From Planctomycetota bacterium (GTDB lineage: Bacteria; Planctomycetota; JACOTG01; JAJDCM01), in contig JAJDCM010000174.1 of NCBI GenBank assembly GCA_029260825.1, positions 1 to 64,000 of the forward strand: DNA of 64,000 bases, in the 5' to 3' direction. The notes under the pieces are model-generated. The model saw nothing but the letters and a program-made list of their open reading frames with translations, made no database searches and was not told where the DNA came from. This document shows positions 1 through 19,879 of the stretch, piece after piece; positions within the stretch are counted from its first letter, which is position 1; each line of letters begins with the position of its first letter. A program made the position numbers and the translations under genes.

Positions 1-725
1 TCCAGGAAGAGAGTACCTCCATCGGCCTGCTCGAATCGACCCGCCCTACTTGTCGTCGCACCGGTAAAGGAGCCCTTCTCGTGTCCAAAAAGCTCACTTT
101 CGATCAAACCCTCCGGGATAGCCCCACAATTGACGGCAACAAAAGGAGCGCTCCGTCTCGGGCTCTCGGCATGGACTGCTCGAGCTGCAACTTCTTTTCC
201 CGTGCCACTGCCCCCCGTCAACAAAAGGGTCACGTCACTCTGAGCCGCCTTGCCAAGGAGGGCAATCGACTTCTTGATTGCCGAAGACTCTCCAAGAATT
301 CGCCCGAAACCGTCCCCGCTCCGAAGTTCACTGGTGAGCAACTCCACTCGAGACTTGAGCATCCCCTGGGTCAAGGCATTACGAACTGACGTGACCACGC
401 GAGTGGAATCAAACGGTTTCTGGACGTAATCAAAAGCGCCGAGCCGCATGCAGTCGACCACATCCGTTACGCCGGTTGACGACGTCAAGACAACCACAGG
501 AAGCCCGGGTCGAGTCTCCTGAATCTTCTGCAAGATCTCTTTACCTGACATCTCGGGCATATAGAGGTCCAGAACAACCGCGGCGGGATTCTCCTGCTGC
601 AGCAGCTTGAGTCCGGTCGCCCCGTCCTTGGCGAGGATGGTTTGCATGCCGGCTTTTTCCAGGCCCGCTTGCACAAGCCTACGTAAACCCGCGTCGTCAT
701 CGATGATGAGGATCTGGCCGTTCAT
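1..725 (-). CDS. NtrC-type sigma-54-dependent response regulator (partial, 3' end beyond window)
   Basis: Reading the minus strand from the ATG at 725 gives 241 open codons that run off the window edge. Residues 1-120 are a receiver domain: acidic pair D9-D10, phosphoacceptor D53 in VLDLYMP, T81 and K103 in QKPF. From about residue 140 an AAA+ sigma-54 activator domain begins, with Walker A GGSGTGKE (171-178) and the sigma-54 contact loop read as GSFTGA (218-223) followed by GGTLFL. The family remodels sigma-54 RNA polymerase after phosphorylation by a partner kinase. The remainder of the AAA+ domain and the DNA-binding domain lie outside. The loop has Ser where the canonical GAFTGA has Ala, and Walker A has Gly for the usual Glu at position two. 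No kinase or sigma-54-type promoter was recognised here. Confidence 0.93.
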   Translation of the reverse strand, partial: MNGQILIIDDDAGLRRLVQAGLEKAGMQTILAKDGATGLKLLQQENPAAVVLDLYMPEMSGKEILQKIQETRPGLPVVVLTSSTGVTDVVDCMRLGAFDYVQKPFDSTRVVTSVRNALTQGMLKSRVELLTSELRSGDGFGRILGESSAIKKSIALLGKAAQSDVTLLLTGGSGTGKEVAARAVHAESPRRSAPFVAVNCGAIPEGLIESELFGHEKGSFTGATTSRAGRFEQADGGTLFL

Positions 726-824: not shown

Positions 825-3047
825 CTAACCGCCGACGACGGGTACGGCAAGAATTCCGTTCGTAACGCTTGCTGGCACCTCCGCCGCCGATCCTGGGTCA
901 TAAATGAGACCTTGGATGAAAAACCGACCGACCACCGGAAGCCCGGAGGGTCGATCGAAGAAGACCGAGGGGGCTGGCTCCGAATCCCGGTTCGGGCTAC
1001 CGAGGTGTCGAAAACGTCCGGCGTTGTTCCAGATGACTCGAGGCTCAGGACTTCCCCCGGTGATCGGCAAGGGAAATGCAGAGTGACCGAGATCGAGGGG
1101 CAACTGACGAAAACTGAGGGCGGTAGGATCCTGCGGCCACAGGTACACGGCAAACGGCGCCAATCCACCCGATGGAATAGCTGGCGGCTTCCTCATCTCG
1201 AGAGCGAAGGACTCAAGGACGTCGTAGCTCACGATCCGTTCAATACTCGTTCCTGACGAACCGTTCAGAAAAAGAACGTCCGCGATCGCCCCCCTCGCTG
1301 CGTTGACCGTCCCCAGACGAATCCCCGGATCCAGAACCGCAAGGTGGAGAAGAACATCATCAATGTCAGAATCAGCATTCAAGTCCATCGCCCCCTGAGA
1401 TCTCTCGATCACCGGAAACGCTACAAAAGTACGGCTCACCGTCACGGTCGTCGTCGCCAGGGAAAGGTTCGTCACCTGATTCGAAACACGATGATACACG
1501 TGAGCCACTTGATCGATCCCATCCCCATCCCCGTTGAGGTCTTCACCCTGATAGGCTTCGAACGCCATGAATGCCGCTGTTCCGTCAGAAGCCTCCGGAC
1601 CGGGAAGCTGACGCTGAGGTCTTGGACCTGATGCTTCAGATGCTCGGCCCGTGTTGATCAGATGTCGACGGGGCCCATCATAGAGAAAAACGACCTGGTC
1701 AAAAAAATCACCGTCCATGTTGAGATCAACTCCGATTTCCTGGACTCCCAGGAGAAGAAGATCCTCGTCCGTGATCGCCAGAATCGTTCCAGGAACCCCC
1801 AGGTCATCGACCTGCCCCGTCACGAAATCGTAAACCGCAACGGAAGTCGTCACGGGACCGGGAGTTTGAACCGCAACAAGATGATCGTTCAACTTGATCG
1901 TTCCAAATCCAACCATGGTGACGAAGAGATTTGTAATCTCGCCAGTTGCTGCATCGAAGAGATGAAGGACCGTTCCGGTGGTGCTTCCGTCACCGTCCAG
2001 ATCCACTCCCTGCTCCGTAACGTTCATGACGATCTTGCCACCGTGAGCCCCAAAAGAGCTGACGTTCACGGGGAGAATTCGGGTTGCGCCGGTTTTTGGA
2101 TTCGAGACGAACGGAAAGATGTCGATCGCATCCCCGTCACCATTCAGATCTCGTCCCTCCAGATACTCGGAGACCGTGGCAAAAACAATCCCCTCGGCGA
2201 CGGCTCCTTCGAGCCCAGAAATCCCCAGGTTGGTGACGGAAGAAGAATCGACGTCATAGTAGTGAAGAACCAGATCGGCGAAATCCCGGTCACCGTTCAA
2301 GTCTGTTCGTCCCTGACCGTTCTCCGGCACAAGAAAGGCAAGAATACCTTCACTGAAACCAATGATCCTTCCAAAGAAGCCGACGTTTCTTAGCGACCCC
2401 AGAAGGGGTTCATAGACAAACACCACTTCATCGTTCGCGTCGAGATCCCCGTTGAGATCCTGGTTCCCGTGAAATGTCTCACTCACCAAGAAGGCCAGCC
2501 GATTGTCGGAGAGGATGCCCCCGGAGCTGCACGCGACACCCAGGTTTTCGACGGTACCGGAGACAACATCCACAACATGGATGACCAGATCCTGGCTGTC
2601 CCCATCCCCATTCAGATCGCGAGCGCCTTCAAAGAGTTCACTCACCAGAAACGGGACGAACCGATCTCTCTCCTCGGGGCGGCTGATCGATTCAATCGAC
2701 ACGCCCAGGTTGATCCGAGTCCCGGAATGAATATCGTGAAGGTGGAGAACCCGATCGAAAAGATCACCGTCATTGTTGAGATCAACCCCATCCCCCTGCT
2801 CCATCACCGGAATCAGGAGTCGGTTTCCTCGAACAAATACGGGGGGGCCCCGATGAGGTTCAACACAGACTCCAAGGTTCAGAACCTGGGGTGGAGCAAC
2901 GACCGGCTCTCTAGTTTGGCCGGCCTGAGCGGAAGAGCCGGAAAACAACCCGGAGCCGCAAAGAAGGAATAGAAGGCCGAAGAAGCAGATCGAAGGCTGG
3001 GGATGTGAGTTTCGATTCCTGAAGGCATTCAAACACCCGTTTGTCAT
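825..3047 (-). CDS. secreted repeat protein with nine DLNxDGDxxD calcium-type loops (probable beta-propeller)
   Basis: 740 residues. The ATG at 3047 is chosen because AGGAG lies 8 bases upstream; an in-frame ATG at 3155 would only add an unlikely leader. A signal peptide follows (hydrophobic CFFGLLFLLCGSGLF, then Ala-rich SSAQAG). The body is about ten units of roughly 50-56 residues. Most open with NLGV, contain a hydrophobic strand like LAFLVSE, then a loop such as DLNGDGDSQD, then a strand like VLHLYD and SGxxT. Nine units carry the Asp-rich loop and one, around the seventh, lacks it. Asp spacing resembles calcium loops of dockerin, EF-hand or integrin-like blades. About 130 residues of different character end the protein (GRFFIQGLIYDPGS near the C-terminus), similar to terminal domains of secreted planctomycete proteins. 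Function unknown. Confidence 0.85.
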   Translation of the reverse strand: MTNGCLNAFRNRNSHPQPSICFFGLLFLLCGSGLFSGSSAQAGQTREPVVAPPQVLNLGVCVEPHRGPPVFVRGNRLLIPVMEQGDGVDLNNDGDLFDRVLHLHDIHSGTRINLGVSIESISRPEERDRFVPFLVSELFEGARDLNGDGDSQDLVIHVVDVVSGTVENLGVACSSGGILSDNRLAFLVSETFHGNQDLNGDLDANDEVVFVYEPLLGSLRNVGFFGRIIGFSEGILAFLVPENGQGRTDLNGDRDFADLVLHYYDVDSSSVTNLGISGLEGAVAEGIVFATVSEYLEGRDLNGDGDAIDIFPFVSNPKTGATRILPVNVSSFGAHGGKIVMNVTEQGVDLDGDGSTTGTVLHLFDAATGEITNLFVTMVGFGTIKLNDHLVAVQTPGPVTTSVAVYDFVTGQVDDLGVPGTILAITDEDLLLLGVQEIGVDLNMDGDFFDQVVFLYDGPRRHLINTGRASEASGPRPQRQLPGPEASDGTAAFMAFEAYQGEDLNGDGDGIDQVAHVYHRVSNQVTNLSLATTTVTVSRTFVAFPVIERSQGAMDLNADSDIDDVLLHLAVLDPGIRLGTVNAARGAIADVLFLNGSSGTSIERIVSYDVLESFALEMRKPPAIPSGGLAPFAVYLWPQDPTALSFRQLPLDLGHSAFPLPITGGSPEPRVIWNNAGRFRHLGSPNRDSEPAPSVFFDRPSGLPVVGRFFIQGLIYDPGSAAEVPASVTNGILAVPVVGG
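1107..2870 (-). repeat. coding repeat array: ~10 units of ~50-56 codons with Asp-rich loops
   Basis: Within the secreted protein, DLNNDGDLFD, DLNGDGDSQD, DLNGDLDAND, DLNGDRDFAD, DLNGDGDAID, DLDGDGSTTG, DLNMDGDFFD, DLNGDGDGID and DLNADSDIDD recur at regular spacing. One unit between the sixth and seventh loops has the flanking strands but no loop. The boundaries given are approximate. Confidence 0.8.
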
Positions 3048-3169: not shown

Positions 3170-4660
3170 ATGCTCCGAAACCCCATGCCCCTGGCCCTGC
3201 TACTCATCGCATCCCTGGCCCTTTCAACTGTTGCCCTTGGCGACGAATTGACCTTCACCGCATCGGTGGACGAAGCCGTCGAAAAAGGAGTCGCCTGGCT
3301 CCTGAACACCCAACAGGCCGACGGGTCCTGGCTCGGCCCGGACTATCGCCTTTACTATGGAATGACCGCGTTTGCCACCTACACACTTCTCAAGTGCGGA
3401 TTTCCGACGGATCACCCCGCAGTTCGAGCGGGGGCAGTCTACACAGCCCACCGCCCATGCACACGAACCTATGATGCAGCTTGCGTTCTCATGGCACTTC
3501 AAGCTCTTGGATCCGAACGGCCAAAGAAGCTCGCCAAACCGATAACCTTGTTCCTGATTGACAACATGGGCAACGGAAGCCGAGGAAAAAACCTATGGGG
3601 TTATCCGTTTGGGTTACACGGAGAAGGGCCCGCGACCAATCTGGATCTATCCAACACTCAATACGCTCTTCTAGGCTTGAGGGCCGCCGCGGGAATCGGA
3701 GTCCATGTCCCCGGACCGGTCTGGGAAGAAACCGCACTGACACTCCTTGATTTGCAGCGGCCGGACGGAAGCTTCATCTACAAGCCGGGACGAAACGTAA
3801 CCGCCTCCATGACGGTAGCCGGAATGGCAAGTCTCCTGATGTGCAAACAGGCGCTTGCTCGTTACCGGGGAAAGGCCCGCATCTGCCGGAGAATCGAAGA
3901 CGCTGTCAAAACCGGGCTCCTTCTTTGTACCAGCGCCCAGCCCTACCTCATGAACGCCGGCACTTTTGCCCGTCCTCAAGATATCGAAGTCCGGATCAAT
4001 CAGGGCCGCCCCTTGAAGATCACCCTTCATGATTCCGTCCGGCGAAAACAGACCCTTGTCTTCAAGAAGACGAAAGTGCGCTCCCTTCAAATCGCCATCA
4101 AAAGCGTCTACCTGGGAACAACATACCCAAGAAACGGGGGCTTTCGTGAGATCGAACTTTACTGTGATCTGAATCCCGAGGTGGATCCCATGCAACCGTT
4201 CGACCGGGAGAAATCTTCACTCCTTCGGGGCAAGGGAGAAGACAGGGTTTCCTGGAAGTATGTTGAAAAGACGCCATCGCCGTCGTGGATGAATCCTGAC
4301 TTTGCTGATGGAGCATGGAATCGAGCCGAGGCGCCCTTCGGAGCAAACCTCAAGGGTCGCGAACTCAGCCCGTGGACCGGAACCGACATCTGGTTGCGGC
4401 GCTCGTTTTTCTTGACTGCCATTCCGGACTCCCCACTTCTTTTGCAGGTTGCCAGCGACGATCGAGCGGAAATCTACCTGAACGGTGTCCTGGCAGGAAA
4501 AATCGAGGTCTACACAAAGGGACAGTACCGCAAGTTTGCGGTAGACGAAGAGGCGAGCAAAACCCTGAAAACCGGCAAAAACACGATCGCGGTCCACGCA
4601 AAGAACATCGGCGGCGCCTCTCTCATCGACGTGTTTCTACTGAATGTTCATGCCCCGTAG
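3170..4660 (+). CDS. secreted prenyltransferase/squalene-cyclase-like toroid protein with C-terminal sugar-binding-like domain
   Basis: 496 residues beginning with a signal peptide (LALLLIASLALSTVALG, cleaved near residue 25). Residues about 30-260 contain alpha/alpha-toroid repeats of the prenyltransferase and squalene/hopene cyclase superfamily: GVAWLLNTQQADGSW and later LLDLQRPDGSF. These repeats alone do not imply cyclase activity, and no DxDD-type catalytic motif was seen. From about 350 onward the sequence looks like a galactose-binding-type jelly roll, with paired aromatic strands (WLRRSFFL), a DDRAEIYLNGV turn and NTIAVHAKN. This resembles the lectin-like domain of secreted glycosidases. 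The gene is divergent from the repeat-protein gene, with 122 bp between them for two promoters. Probably an extracytoplasmic binding or surface protein; substrate unknown. Confidence 0.75.
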   Translation: MLRNPMPLALLLIASLALSTVALGDELTFTASVDEAVEKGVAWLLNTQQADGSWLGPDYRLYYGMTAFATYTLLKCGFPTDHPAVRAGAVYTAHRPCTRTYDAACVLMALQALGSERPKKLAKPITLFLIDNMGNGSRGKNLWGYPFGLHGEGPATNLDLSNTQYALLGLRAAAGIGVHVPGPVWEETALTLLDLQRPDGSFIYKPGRNVTASMTVAGMASLLMCKQALARYRGKARICRRIEDAVKTGLLLCTSAQPYLMNAGTFARPQDIEVRINQGRPLKITLHDSVRRKQTLVFKKTKVRSLQIAIKSVYLGTTYPRNGGFREIELYCDLNPEVDPMQPFDREKSSLLRGKGEDRVSWKYVEKTPSPSWMNPDFADGAWNRAEAPFGANLKGRELSPWTGTDIWLRRSFFLTAIPDSPLLLQVASDDRAEIYLNGVLAGKIEVYTKGQYRKFAVDEEASKTLKTGKNTIAVHAKNIGGASLIDVFLLNVHAP

Positions 4661-17732: not shown

Positions 17733-19879
17733 TTGCCTCGCGGAGGAGCGGCAGGCAGCATCCGATTCATGTTCAAGACCTTTTCCATGTGAGACCGAGC
17801 AACCGTATGTTTCGGATCGGTCCTCAGGACGGATTGCAGATGATCGACAGCCTCCGCGCCCCGGCCCAAGCTTGTCAAGACGGTAGCGAGATTGACTCGT
17901 AAGACAGAATCGTCAGGATGCTCGACGACCGCTTCCGTGAGCAACTCCTTGGCCAGTTGCCACTCGCCCCGGGAAAGATAGAGGGCGGCAAGGTTGTTGA
18001 CGACAAGAACGTTACTCGAGTTCGATTGATGAAGGGTCGTGAGGTATCGCTCAGCGCTCTCAAGATCTCCCTCTCGTCTCGCCATTGCAGCGAGATAGAT
18101 GTAGGGAAGCCCACCCAGAGCCGCATACTCTCGGGCTGCTTCCAGTCCAACTTCAGCCTTCTGAATCCGGCCCGCCTCGTAATCCATGATGGCACGTCGC
18201 ATGAGCGCCATCGCCAGGCCCGATCGAGAAAGAGCCGATCCTTCGAGAGATGCATCTACCTGAGACTCCTCGAGCGACGTGTCTTCATCGGGCTTGACTT
18301 CATTCAAGATCGTGTCCATCGTGGCAGCGGAGAAAGCATCGAAGAAACTCCCATCGGGAGGAGAATCAAAGAAGAGCCCGAGATGAAAAGGCCTCTTCGT
18401 TTCTTGGATGTAATGACGTGCCTTCCTCAGCTCCTCCACCTGCCTCGCATCGTCGACCGTATGGGGCGTCAGAACCAGAACGAGTTCCACCTGTCGCTCG
18501 CTTTGAATCGTACGGCGGAAGGCAATTCCAAGAAGTGGGATATCTCCAAGAACCGGAATCTTTTCGACGGTCTCAATCTGACGCATGAATCGAAGACCAC
18601 CGATCACCACACTTTGACCGTCTTTGATCCGAAGAGTTGTGGTGGTCTCTCTTACGCTCAGGATGGGCTCCGTCTGTAAACCGTCGGGTGTCGTTACCTG
18701 GCCCACGACTTCCGTGATCCGAGGCGATATGCGGGTCACGATGTCTCCCCCGGAGGAGATCTGGGGCAAAAGATTCAAGACCACACCCGCATCTTCAAAA
18801 CGAATGTCGAACTCGGTCCGGGACGTTTCTCCGTCAATAATGGTCCGCTCGATGACGGGCACTTGATCGGCAACCGTGATGGAGGCTGGTTGATTGTTCA
18901 GGGTCGCCACCCGTGGACGAGAAAGCACCCGGACCTGCCCCACGCTCTTCATGGCATCGACCAGAACGCCGTAGCGATCCTGCTTGAAAAGACCGAACCG
19001 AAAGGCGTTTCCCCCCGAGAGGAGGTTGGCCACAAAGGCAGCACCATTCTCGAGCAGTCCAGTCTCATCAGAAGGCAGCGCACCCGGGAAAACCGAGTAG
19101 GCTACGCCAAGGCGATGCTCGTCGTCCAGAGAGACTTCAAGGATCTCGGCCTCGATCACAACCTGACGATGAAGAGATTTCTCAAGATCCGCAAGGAACT
19201 TCTCCAGAACATCAAGATCGGCAAGAGAACCGCTCGCCACGACCGTTCCCGCTTCCGGCTTCAGCACAACTCGGGTTTCCGGCGAGAGCAGGTCGGCGAT
19301 CTCTTGTTTCAAGGTCTCCCAGGGATCAACCGCTACGGCCGAGCCTCCGCCCTCCGATCCGCCACCGTCCGACCCACCTTCGTCCGAGCCCCCGCCTCCT
19401 CCTTGAATAATTGTGCCTGACACATAGTCGAGGTGAAAAGTCTTGGTCTTCCTTCCCTCCACGATCATGAAATCTCCCTGCCTTCGAATCGACAATCCGA
19501 GGAGATCAACGAGGTTCAAGAGAGCTTCTTCTTGGCTCGTGGCACGAAAGTCAAACGTGACCGACCCGGAGACTTCGGGGGCCACCATCAAATTCAGATC
19601 GCTTTGATCAAAGAGGGTGATCAGAACATCCCGAATATCAGCGCTTCGAGCGGAGAACGCCTGCATGTCATCATGACCCACGTCCGGTGAAACGGACCGG
19701 GCATCCGGCTCCATCCAGATCAAGGGGAGTGATGGGCTCGCCTCGCTCATCTTGGTCCGAAGATCGGGAATCTCGATCTTGGGATCGCGAGGAGTCGGCG
19801 TTGATGAGCAAGCGGAAAGGAAGACCATTCCTCCGATCAACATCGAGAAGCGGGAAAGTCTAGAGGATGGAATGAACAT
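17729..19879 (-). CDS. secretin lipoprotein with C-terminal TPR region (GspD/PilQ/MshL-like)
   Basis: 716 residues. It starts with a lipoprotein signal peptide, lipobox LSAC with Cys24. An STN/N0-like domain spans about 75-145. A Gly/Ser-rich linker (about 158-180) follows, then a short N-domain, then the secretin beta-domain (about 240-475) with RVLSRPRVATLNNQPA and IPVLGDIPLLGIAFR, the latter a secretin signature. After 480 the sequence changes to TPR-like helices (about 560-710: AREYAALGGLPYIYLAAMAR, NNLAALYLSRGEWQLAKELL). A TPR tail on a secretin is unusual; it may replace a separate pilotin or peptidoglycan partner. Outer-membrane ring. Last gene of the operon, 4 bp after its neighbour. 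Confidence 0.92.
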   Translation of the reverse strand: MFIPSSRLSRFSMLIGGMVFLSACSSTPTPRDPKIEIPDLRTKMSEASPSLPLIWMEPDARSVSPDVGHDDMQAFSARSADIRDVLITLFDQSDLNLMVAPEVSGSVTFDFRATSQEEALLNLVDLLGLSIRRQGDFMIVEGRKTKTFHLDYVSGTIIQGGGGGSDEGGSDGGGSEGGGSAVAVDPWETLKQEIADLLSPETRVVLKPEAGTVVASGSLADLDVLEKFLADLEKSLHRQVVIEAEILEVSLDDEHRLGVAYSVFPGALPSDETGLLENGAAFVANLLSGGNAFRFGLFKQDRYGVLVDAMKSVGQVRVLSRPRVATLNNQPASITVADQVPVIERTIIDGETSRTEFDIRFEDAGVVLNLLPQISSGGDIVTRISPRITEVVGQVTTPDGLQTEPILSVRETTTTLRIKDGQSVVIGGLRFMRQIETVEKIPVLGDIPLLGIAFRRTIQSERQVELVLVLTPHTVDDARQVEELRKARHYIQETKRPFHLGLFFDSPPDGSFFDAFSAATMDTILNEVKPDEDTSLEESQVDASLEGSALSRSGLAMALMRRAIMDYEAGRIQKAEVGLEAAREYAALGGLPYIYLAAMARREGDLESAERYLTTLHQSNSSNVLVVNNLAALYLSRGEWQLAKELLTEAVVEHPDDSVLRVNLATVLTSLGRGAEAVDHLQSVLRTDPKHTVARSHMEKVLNMNRMLPAAPPRGN

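Follow-up and report, generated by a model that had tools for sequence, protein, structure and literature searches.

A ten-unit Asp-loop repeat protein from a planctomycete, a likely beta-propeller with a C-terminal domain shared across its genome

The gene described here lies close to the start of the window, by which is meant the whole 64,000-nucleotide stretch of a Planctomycetota contig that was analysed. An open frame on the minus strand, running from an ATG at 3047 to a stop codon at 825-827, encodes a protein of 740 amino acids, in agreement with the coordinates (825-3047) and the length given in a preliminary description that was made from the sequence alone. By eye, the signal peptide has no lipobox, and it is followed by a repeat domain and a separate C-terminal domain (Table 1). 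The preliminary description had read ten units with nine loops, and the motif count came out the same, with nine loops and one loopless unit; the latter is predicted to retain four of four strands, as had been said of the one blade that lost its loop but kept its strands. An NLGV strand had been assigned to each unit; one such stretch stands alone at the N terminus and the last unit has none. The layout proposed for the protein as a whole stands for the ten-unit part and overlooked the C-terminal domain of 166 residues.

Table 1. Features of the 740-residue protein and its gene (positions are those of the window)
Feature	Position	Strand	Basis or remark
Gene, 740 aa plus stop	825..3047	-	start ATG at 3047
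Sec-type signal peptide, aa 1-42	2922..3047	-	probable cleavage after SAQA (SAQA/G), by-eye reading
Repeat domain, ten units, aa 46-577, predicted beta-propeller	1317..2912	-	unit HMM and structure prediction/matches
Lone N-terminal NLG stretch QVLNLGVCV, aa 54-62	2862..2888	-	strand predicted in relative L064, not in the window model
Loop 1, DLNNDGDLFD, aa 89-98	2754..2783	-	motif
Loop 2, DLNGDGDSQD, aa 144-153	2589..2618	-	motif
Loop 3, DLNGDLDAND, aa 197-206	2430..2459	-	motif
Loop 4, DLNGDRDFAD, aa 249-258	2274..2303	-	motif
Loop 5, DLNGDGDAID, aa 300-309	2121..2150	-	motif
Loop 6, DLDGDGSTTG, aa 349-358, final Asp gone	1974..2003	-	motif
Unit 7, loopless, about aa 382-424	1776..1904	-	four strands predicted; hairpin without Glu
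Loop 7, DLNMDGDFFD, aa 441-450 (unit 8)	1698..1727	-	motif
Loop 8, DLNGDGDGID, aa 503-512 (unit 9)	1512..1541	-	motif
Loop 9, DLNADSDIDD, aa 555-564 (unit 10)	1356..1385	-	motif; unit end without NLG strand
C-terminal domain, aa 575-740 (166 aa)	828..1325	-	at least 150 places in the genome, on several exported protein kinds

The neighbouring genes name no function for the protein. Upstream, a divergent gene at 3170-4660 has sub-cut-off similarity to squalene-hopene cyclase, and beyond it lie genes for two glycosyltransferases and for a protein with a Yip1 domain. A response regulator of the NtrC type (3-725, minus strand), cut by the window start, lies 100 bases downstream of the gene and is possibly co-transcribed with it, and a scan of the region for promoters and terminators gave nothing above shuffled sequences. 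Elsewhere in the window a secretin is encoded at 18455-18955 on the minus strand, and the genome holds 11 secretin matches, compared with 9, 7 and 5 in three relatives.

The repeat unit is about 50 residues long and recurs in the 740-residue protein with a period of about 50-60 residues. An HMM of the unit, trained on 141 copies from this protein and its paralogues in the same genome, found nine units at 34.8-63.9 bits, scores that are high partly by construction, and missed the loopless one; the best match among 320 shuffled sequences (20 for each of 16 sequences) reached 5.9 bits. The loops follow the pattern DxNxDGDxxD exactly in five of nine cases, with loops 3, 4, 6 and 9 deviating, and the Dx[DN]xDG core is found in six, loops 3, 4 and 9 being without the Gly. 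The same loop recurs 144 times in 16 proteins of the genome (15 long family members and one fragment) when a stricter pattern is used, in which Asp 1 is the defining residue and hence present in all; Asn 3 is found in 135 of these loops, Asp 5 in 140, Gly 6 in 132, Asp 7 and Asp 10 in 131 each, and Asp 9 in 20. All 144 have a Glu no more than 12 residues upstream, placed at -6 or -7 in 124, where about 40% would be expected from composition. A looser pattern gave 146 matches, five of them without the Glu and by eye not in loops, together with 11 long gaps, two of which were artefacts.

Nine loopless units lie between loops in seven of the 15 family members and keep the normal short hairpin. 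The Glu is missing from eight of these nine hairpins, and L030 begins with two further loopless units, made out by eye, of which one has the Glu, so that nine of 11 are without it overall. The eleven units bear out the earlier suggestion that the strands, and not the loop, are the fold. On this comparison the loop appears to be an insert of some 15 residues that a unit can do without, the Glu usually being lost along with it, and, because the two are lost together, the Glu is taken to be part of the site of the loop. The loop and the Glu that closes strand B would most likely form a calcium site, a reading that draws on the literature on the Dx[DN]xDG motif, where one source describes such motifs as mostly extracellular and those in propellers as calcium blades (PMC3123361).

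Neither Pfam nor NCBIfam held a match to the 740-residue protein, and a sequence search of solved structures returned nothing better than chance for the protein (best E 0.9) and no match at all with the family profile. When all 15 members were compared with Pfam, eight families appeared, each in a single member, including EF-hand_7 (0.13) and TIG (4e-7), the latter in a member that by eye has an extra domain; the NCBIfam matches were LIC10067_lipo (3e-4) and choice-of-anchor Z (0.002), again in one member each, and these scattered weak matches were discounted. The 15 long members, the 740-residue protein included, represent an expansion of the family in this genome and are accompanied there by fragments, whereas two genomes of the same order hold only a few partial matches. 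Counting loops and loopless units together, 13 of the 15 have ten units, L030 reaching that number only if its two by-eye units are counted, and two (L026 and L034) have eleven. The positional memory of the units is weak, a unit being matched best by the one at the same position in 206 of 942 comparisons where about 99 were expected; this comparison used 11 of the 16 proteins, and spurious motif matches shift the numbering in some.

The repeat is present in 37 of 294 genomes of the phylum, and at least 35 loci of named relatives were collected, among them Armatimonadetes, Binatia, Myxococcota, Deltaproteobacteria, Anaerolineae, Actinomycetota and one Woesearchaeota, although these taxa are taken from record titles and the names of metagenome-assembled genomes may be wrong. 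Four relatives (L041, L073, L076 and L068) are ten-unit proteins whose chain runs only 0-5 residues past the last unit, and for this reason the ten-unit block is regarded as a complete domain. Other numbers occur, with nine units in L064 and L065 and seven found in L099, the one relative from a viral collection, whose protein looks archaeal by eye and has a below-cut-off match to nos_propeller_2 (E 9e-4). Its hydrophobic C-terminal segment resembles, again by eye, an archaeal surface anchor. In ten long relatives (L074, L075, L077-L083 and L095) two units stand about 500 residues apart from the remainder; these proteins, of about 1,400-1,800 residues, are from Binatia, deltaproteobacterial and related sources, and have several units past the gap. 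TSP3 repeats fall below the curated cut-off in three of the five long relatives scanned; in L075 and L095 such sub-threshold repeats lie near the end. A tblastn search with the repeat region of a paralogue found nothing in 72,556 plasmid records, and the literature listings, judged by titles and abstract openings, included no paper on the repeat family, a single match to the loop sequence being unrelated, which does not in itself show that the family is absent from print. Propellers with calcium loops are a known kind; the libraries searched contain no description of this family, its blade number or its loop pattern, and the family is widespread without a Pfam or NCBIfam model.

The preliminary description had proposed either a propeller or a solenoid and had called for a structure prediction. 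The AlphaFold2 model of the protein from the window, covering aa 46-600 with an alignment of 13 sequences, has a pLDDT of 75.8 and a pTM of 0.74, and predicts four strands per unit. Its first 23 residues, which include the lone NLG stretch, lie below a pLDDT of 50 and that stretch is not predicted as a strand, while the first blade lies at about 58-75. The closure of the 740-residue protein accordingly rests mainly on the nine-unit relative L064, modelled with 11 sequences at a pLDDT of 89.0 and a pTM of 0.84. Here a lone NLG strand is followed by eight sets of four strands and a last set of three, giving 36 (1+8x4+3), and the model is thus predicted to form nine four-stranded blades with a velcro closure by the N-terminal strand. 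In WD40 propellers, too, a lone N-terminal strand completes the last blade. Repeat closure of the kind asked about is therefore predicted, mainly in L064, and four-stranded units, velcro termini and matches to propellers of known structure speak for the propeller side of the earlier proposal.

Those matches were sought with Foldseek and VIA for both models, and the best 50 listed per search were propeller-bearing proteins when judged by title, a few titles (for example those of 9xrl_C and 9qzc_i) naming only a large assembly. The best query TM-scores among the 50 listed for the window model, a moderate 0.49-0.54, belonged to the ten-bladed sortilin and SorLA, with an rmsd to sortilin of about 7-14 A and an identity of about 7-12%. 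Sortilin also gave the best listed Foldseek query TM-scores for L064 (0.44-0.47), and since a nine-unit protein leads with it as well, the structure matches are taken to bear on the fold and not on the number of blades. By E-value the top Foldseek match of both models was tricorn protease. Many of the VIA alignments listed for L064 span model residues of about 29-518 at Z 12.4-15.2, the top Z being 15.2 and the longest listed alignment being with the nine-bladed eIF3b propeller (362 residues, 5.1 A, Z 12.8). A viral fold search returned Kelch, WD40 and similar propellers along with unnamed proteins. Taken as a model-based assignment, a propeller fold is likely for the 740-residue protein.

The order of the strands within a blade was read from their spacing in L064, where the short strand is separated from FxVxE by 2-4 residues and VLHVYD from NLG by 4-6, with the connection from NLG to the short strand (1-12 residues) being the most variable in length. 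This spacing suggests that a blade begins with the short strand as A and continues with FxVxE as B, the loop, VLHVYD as C and NLG as D, which would put the loop on the B-C hairpin. On this reading the chain would pass from one blade to the next between NLG and the short strand, and in eight of nine cases that connection has just 1-5 residues, a tightness that counts against this order.

How such a repeat relates to known propellers admits more than one answer. It might be an FG-GAP/integrin-type or VCBS calcium-blade propeller too diverged for the models to recognise, which we consider improbable. In two sources the Dx[DN]xDG core is common to the blade hairpins of calcium blades (PMC3123361, PMC8023676), FG-GAP proteins of the same genome carry the same C-terminal domain, and hhalign of the unit profiles against FG-GAP units gave a probability of 63 and a score of 21.0, where the maximum for 40 column-shuffled profiles was 16.2. 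That match, however, consists of nine Asp-loop columns, and because the reversed profile scored better (27.5) it is read as a similarity of motif. None of the 15 members matched FG-GAP (PF01839, PF13517, PF14312) at E up to 10, whereas FG-GAP controls from the same genome (L036, L006 and L005) were recognised with best E-values of 7e-30 to 4e-72; the match to an FG-GAP or dockerin family that had been named as speaking against the preliminary description was thus absent. Calcium blades also have an extra acid at position 9, two past the DG, where Asp occurs here in just 20 of 144 loops, the usual places being 7 and 10 (131/144 each), and the loop seems to sit on B-C and not on A-B, the latter being the calcium-blade loop in one of these sources (PMC8023676). 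Integrin was not among the best 50 Foldseek or best 50 VIA matches listed for the window model, an observation that carries no weight. An origin from a diverged WD40/TolB-like (PD40) propeller with an inserted calcium loop is compatible with our best explanation, given below, and is a real though tentative possibility. It would fit the abundance of TolB, tricorn and S9-peptidase propellers among the best 50 matches listed for both models, the in-register alignment of the units over 42 columns with PD40-like units of a sister genome and, presumably, the turn, strand order and velcro pattern, which we take to resemble PD40. The profile scores are less favourable, at 12.9 against the sister-genome PD40-like units (maximum of 40 column shuffles, 12.27) and 10.8 against classical PD40 units (null maximum 11.39), in a test that works, as PD40-like against PD40 profiles gave 46.9. 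No own-genome member of the 15 matched PD40 (PF07676), compared with PD40-like controls of the sister genome of which two of three were over the cut-off and one below, and the one PD40 match in a relative, L095 (E 7e-10), lies in the stretch between its units. From these sequence comparisons descent from the WD40-like class is plausible, though not proven.

Other arrangements of the same units bear on the shape of the domain. Asp-rich loops at a near-fixed period, along with the sub-cut-off TSP3 repeats of three of the five long relatives scanned, would suit an open solenoid or stalk with loops like the calcium ladders of RTX or TSP3 proteins, but this is highly improbable in view of the units of four strands, the lone strand at the start, the absent one at the end and the propeller matches that span both ends of L064. 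Very wide single wheels are rare, and apart from this nothing specific points to two wheels in place of a single ten-bladed one; we give that arrangement very little credence, as loopless units occupy different positions in the paralogues, members with seven, nine and 11 units exist and a single N-terminal strand would close a single final blade. Dockerin was rejected, with no family match in Pfam and a unit period of about 50-60 residues.

The C-terminal domain leads away from the propeller and may be the stronger lead of the two. When the full protein was compared with the genome (8.37 Mb in 425 contigs), 177 matches appeared, and the majority of those listed fall in this domain of about 160 residues; a profile of 17 copies then matched all 150 candidates scored, of 335, so that the domain occurs in at least 150 places, the one in the window included. 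In 57 of 58 match rows 4-8 residues separate its end from the stop; in this count several open frames were entered twice, and the lone exception is half of a split match. Of the 15 long repeat proteins all but L021, hence 14, have the domain, which is also found on other kinds of protein: of six partners compared with Pfam, two matched FG-GAP_3/FG-GAP, one FG-GAP_2 and three TIG and PD40 (two over the cut-off), and by eye it is also carried by a subtilase-like protein and a parallel beta-helix-like protein. Within the phylum 15 of 294 genomes have it, the present one among them; the E-values are best in two genomes of the same order, and three genomes of one other family have at least 12 scored copies. 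No Pfam family was matched by any of the 17 profile members, and in NCBIfam one of the 17 touched a PEP-CTERM family model (E 0.017), with nothing for the 740-residue protein itself. A search for the SprA translocon matched none of four genomes, and none of the control genomes gave a match, making this result uninformative; a literature search on FG-GAP, C-terminal and secreted proteins of Planctomycetes found nothing. Recurrence in about 150 places suggests that the domain is an address tag or an anchor. A wider conjecture, speculative and rather doubtful, is that some Planctomycetota lineages use it as the address tag of a route for secretion or surface display that is yet to be described. 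Such a route would serve at least 150 cargoes per cell, many being propellers of the FG-GAP, PD40-like or ten-bladed kind, and would coat the cell with a large repertoire of swappable propeller binders.

Our best explanation, probable with moderate confidence, is that the protein is an exported and most likely surface-held, ten-bladed calcium-loop beta-propeller. Each blade would run from a short strand A through B (laFxVxE), the metal-type loop and C (VLHVYD) to D (NLGLA), with the lone N-terminal NLG strand completing the last blade, as predicted for the fold and its closure by the models. A loop of the DxNxDGDxxD type would occupy the B-C hairpin in nine of ten blades and, with the Glu of strand B, would form a probable calcium site that stiffens the blade, these sites together ringing one face of the wheel. 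The C-terminal domain would send the protein to the cell surface or anchor it there, and the propeller may then serve as a calcium-stabilised platform for binding, in adhesion or capture. The natural members with seven, nine, ten and 11 units would let the gain and loss of blades be tested in propellers, a metal-type loop on nearly every blade offers a test of the need for calcium in very wide wheels, and the common C-terminal domain provides a handle on how planctomycetes deliver and retain their surface proteins.

Set beside known systems, the protein has points in common with several. With FG-GAP, integrin alpha and VCBS proteins it would share the propeller fold, a Dx[DN]xDG loop on several blades and a mostly extracellular setting, but it has the upstream Glu and ten units instead of seven or eight. 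The WD40-like, TolB, PD40 and S9-peptidase propellers resemble it in the predicted order of four strands per blade, the velcro closure and the many structural matches, and differ in the lack of a clear profile match and of a DxNxDGDxxD loop in the known propellers; they have fewer blades as a rule. The Vps10p domain of sortilin has ten blades and gave the top TM-scores listed for the window model, but the 740-residue protein is without the Asp-box SxDxGxTW, having no TW, and sortilin is matched by the nine-unit L064 as well. As for the C-terminal domain, it recalls the CTD of the type IX secretion system (T9SS) and PEP-CTERM in being one domain found at the C terminus of different exported proteins. 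It stands apart from them in having no Pfam match and only the single NCBIfam touch described above, and PEP-CTERM tails are shorter than its roughly 160 residues.
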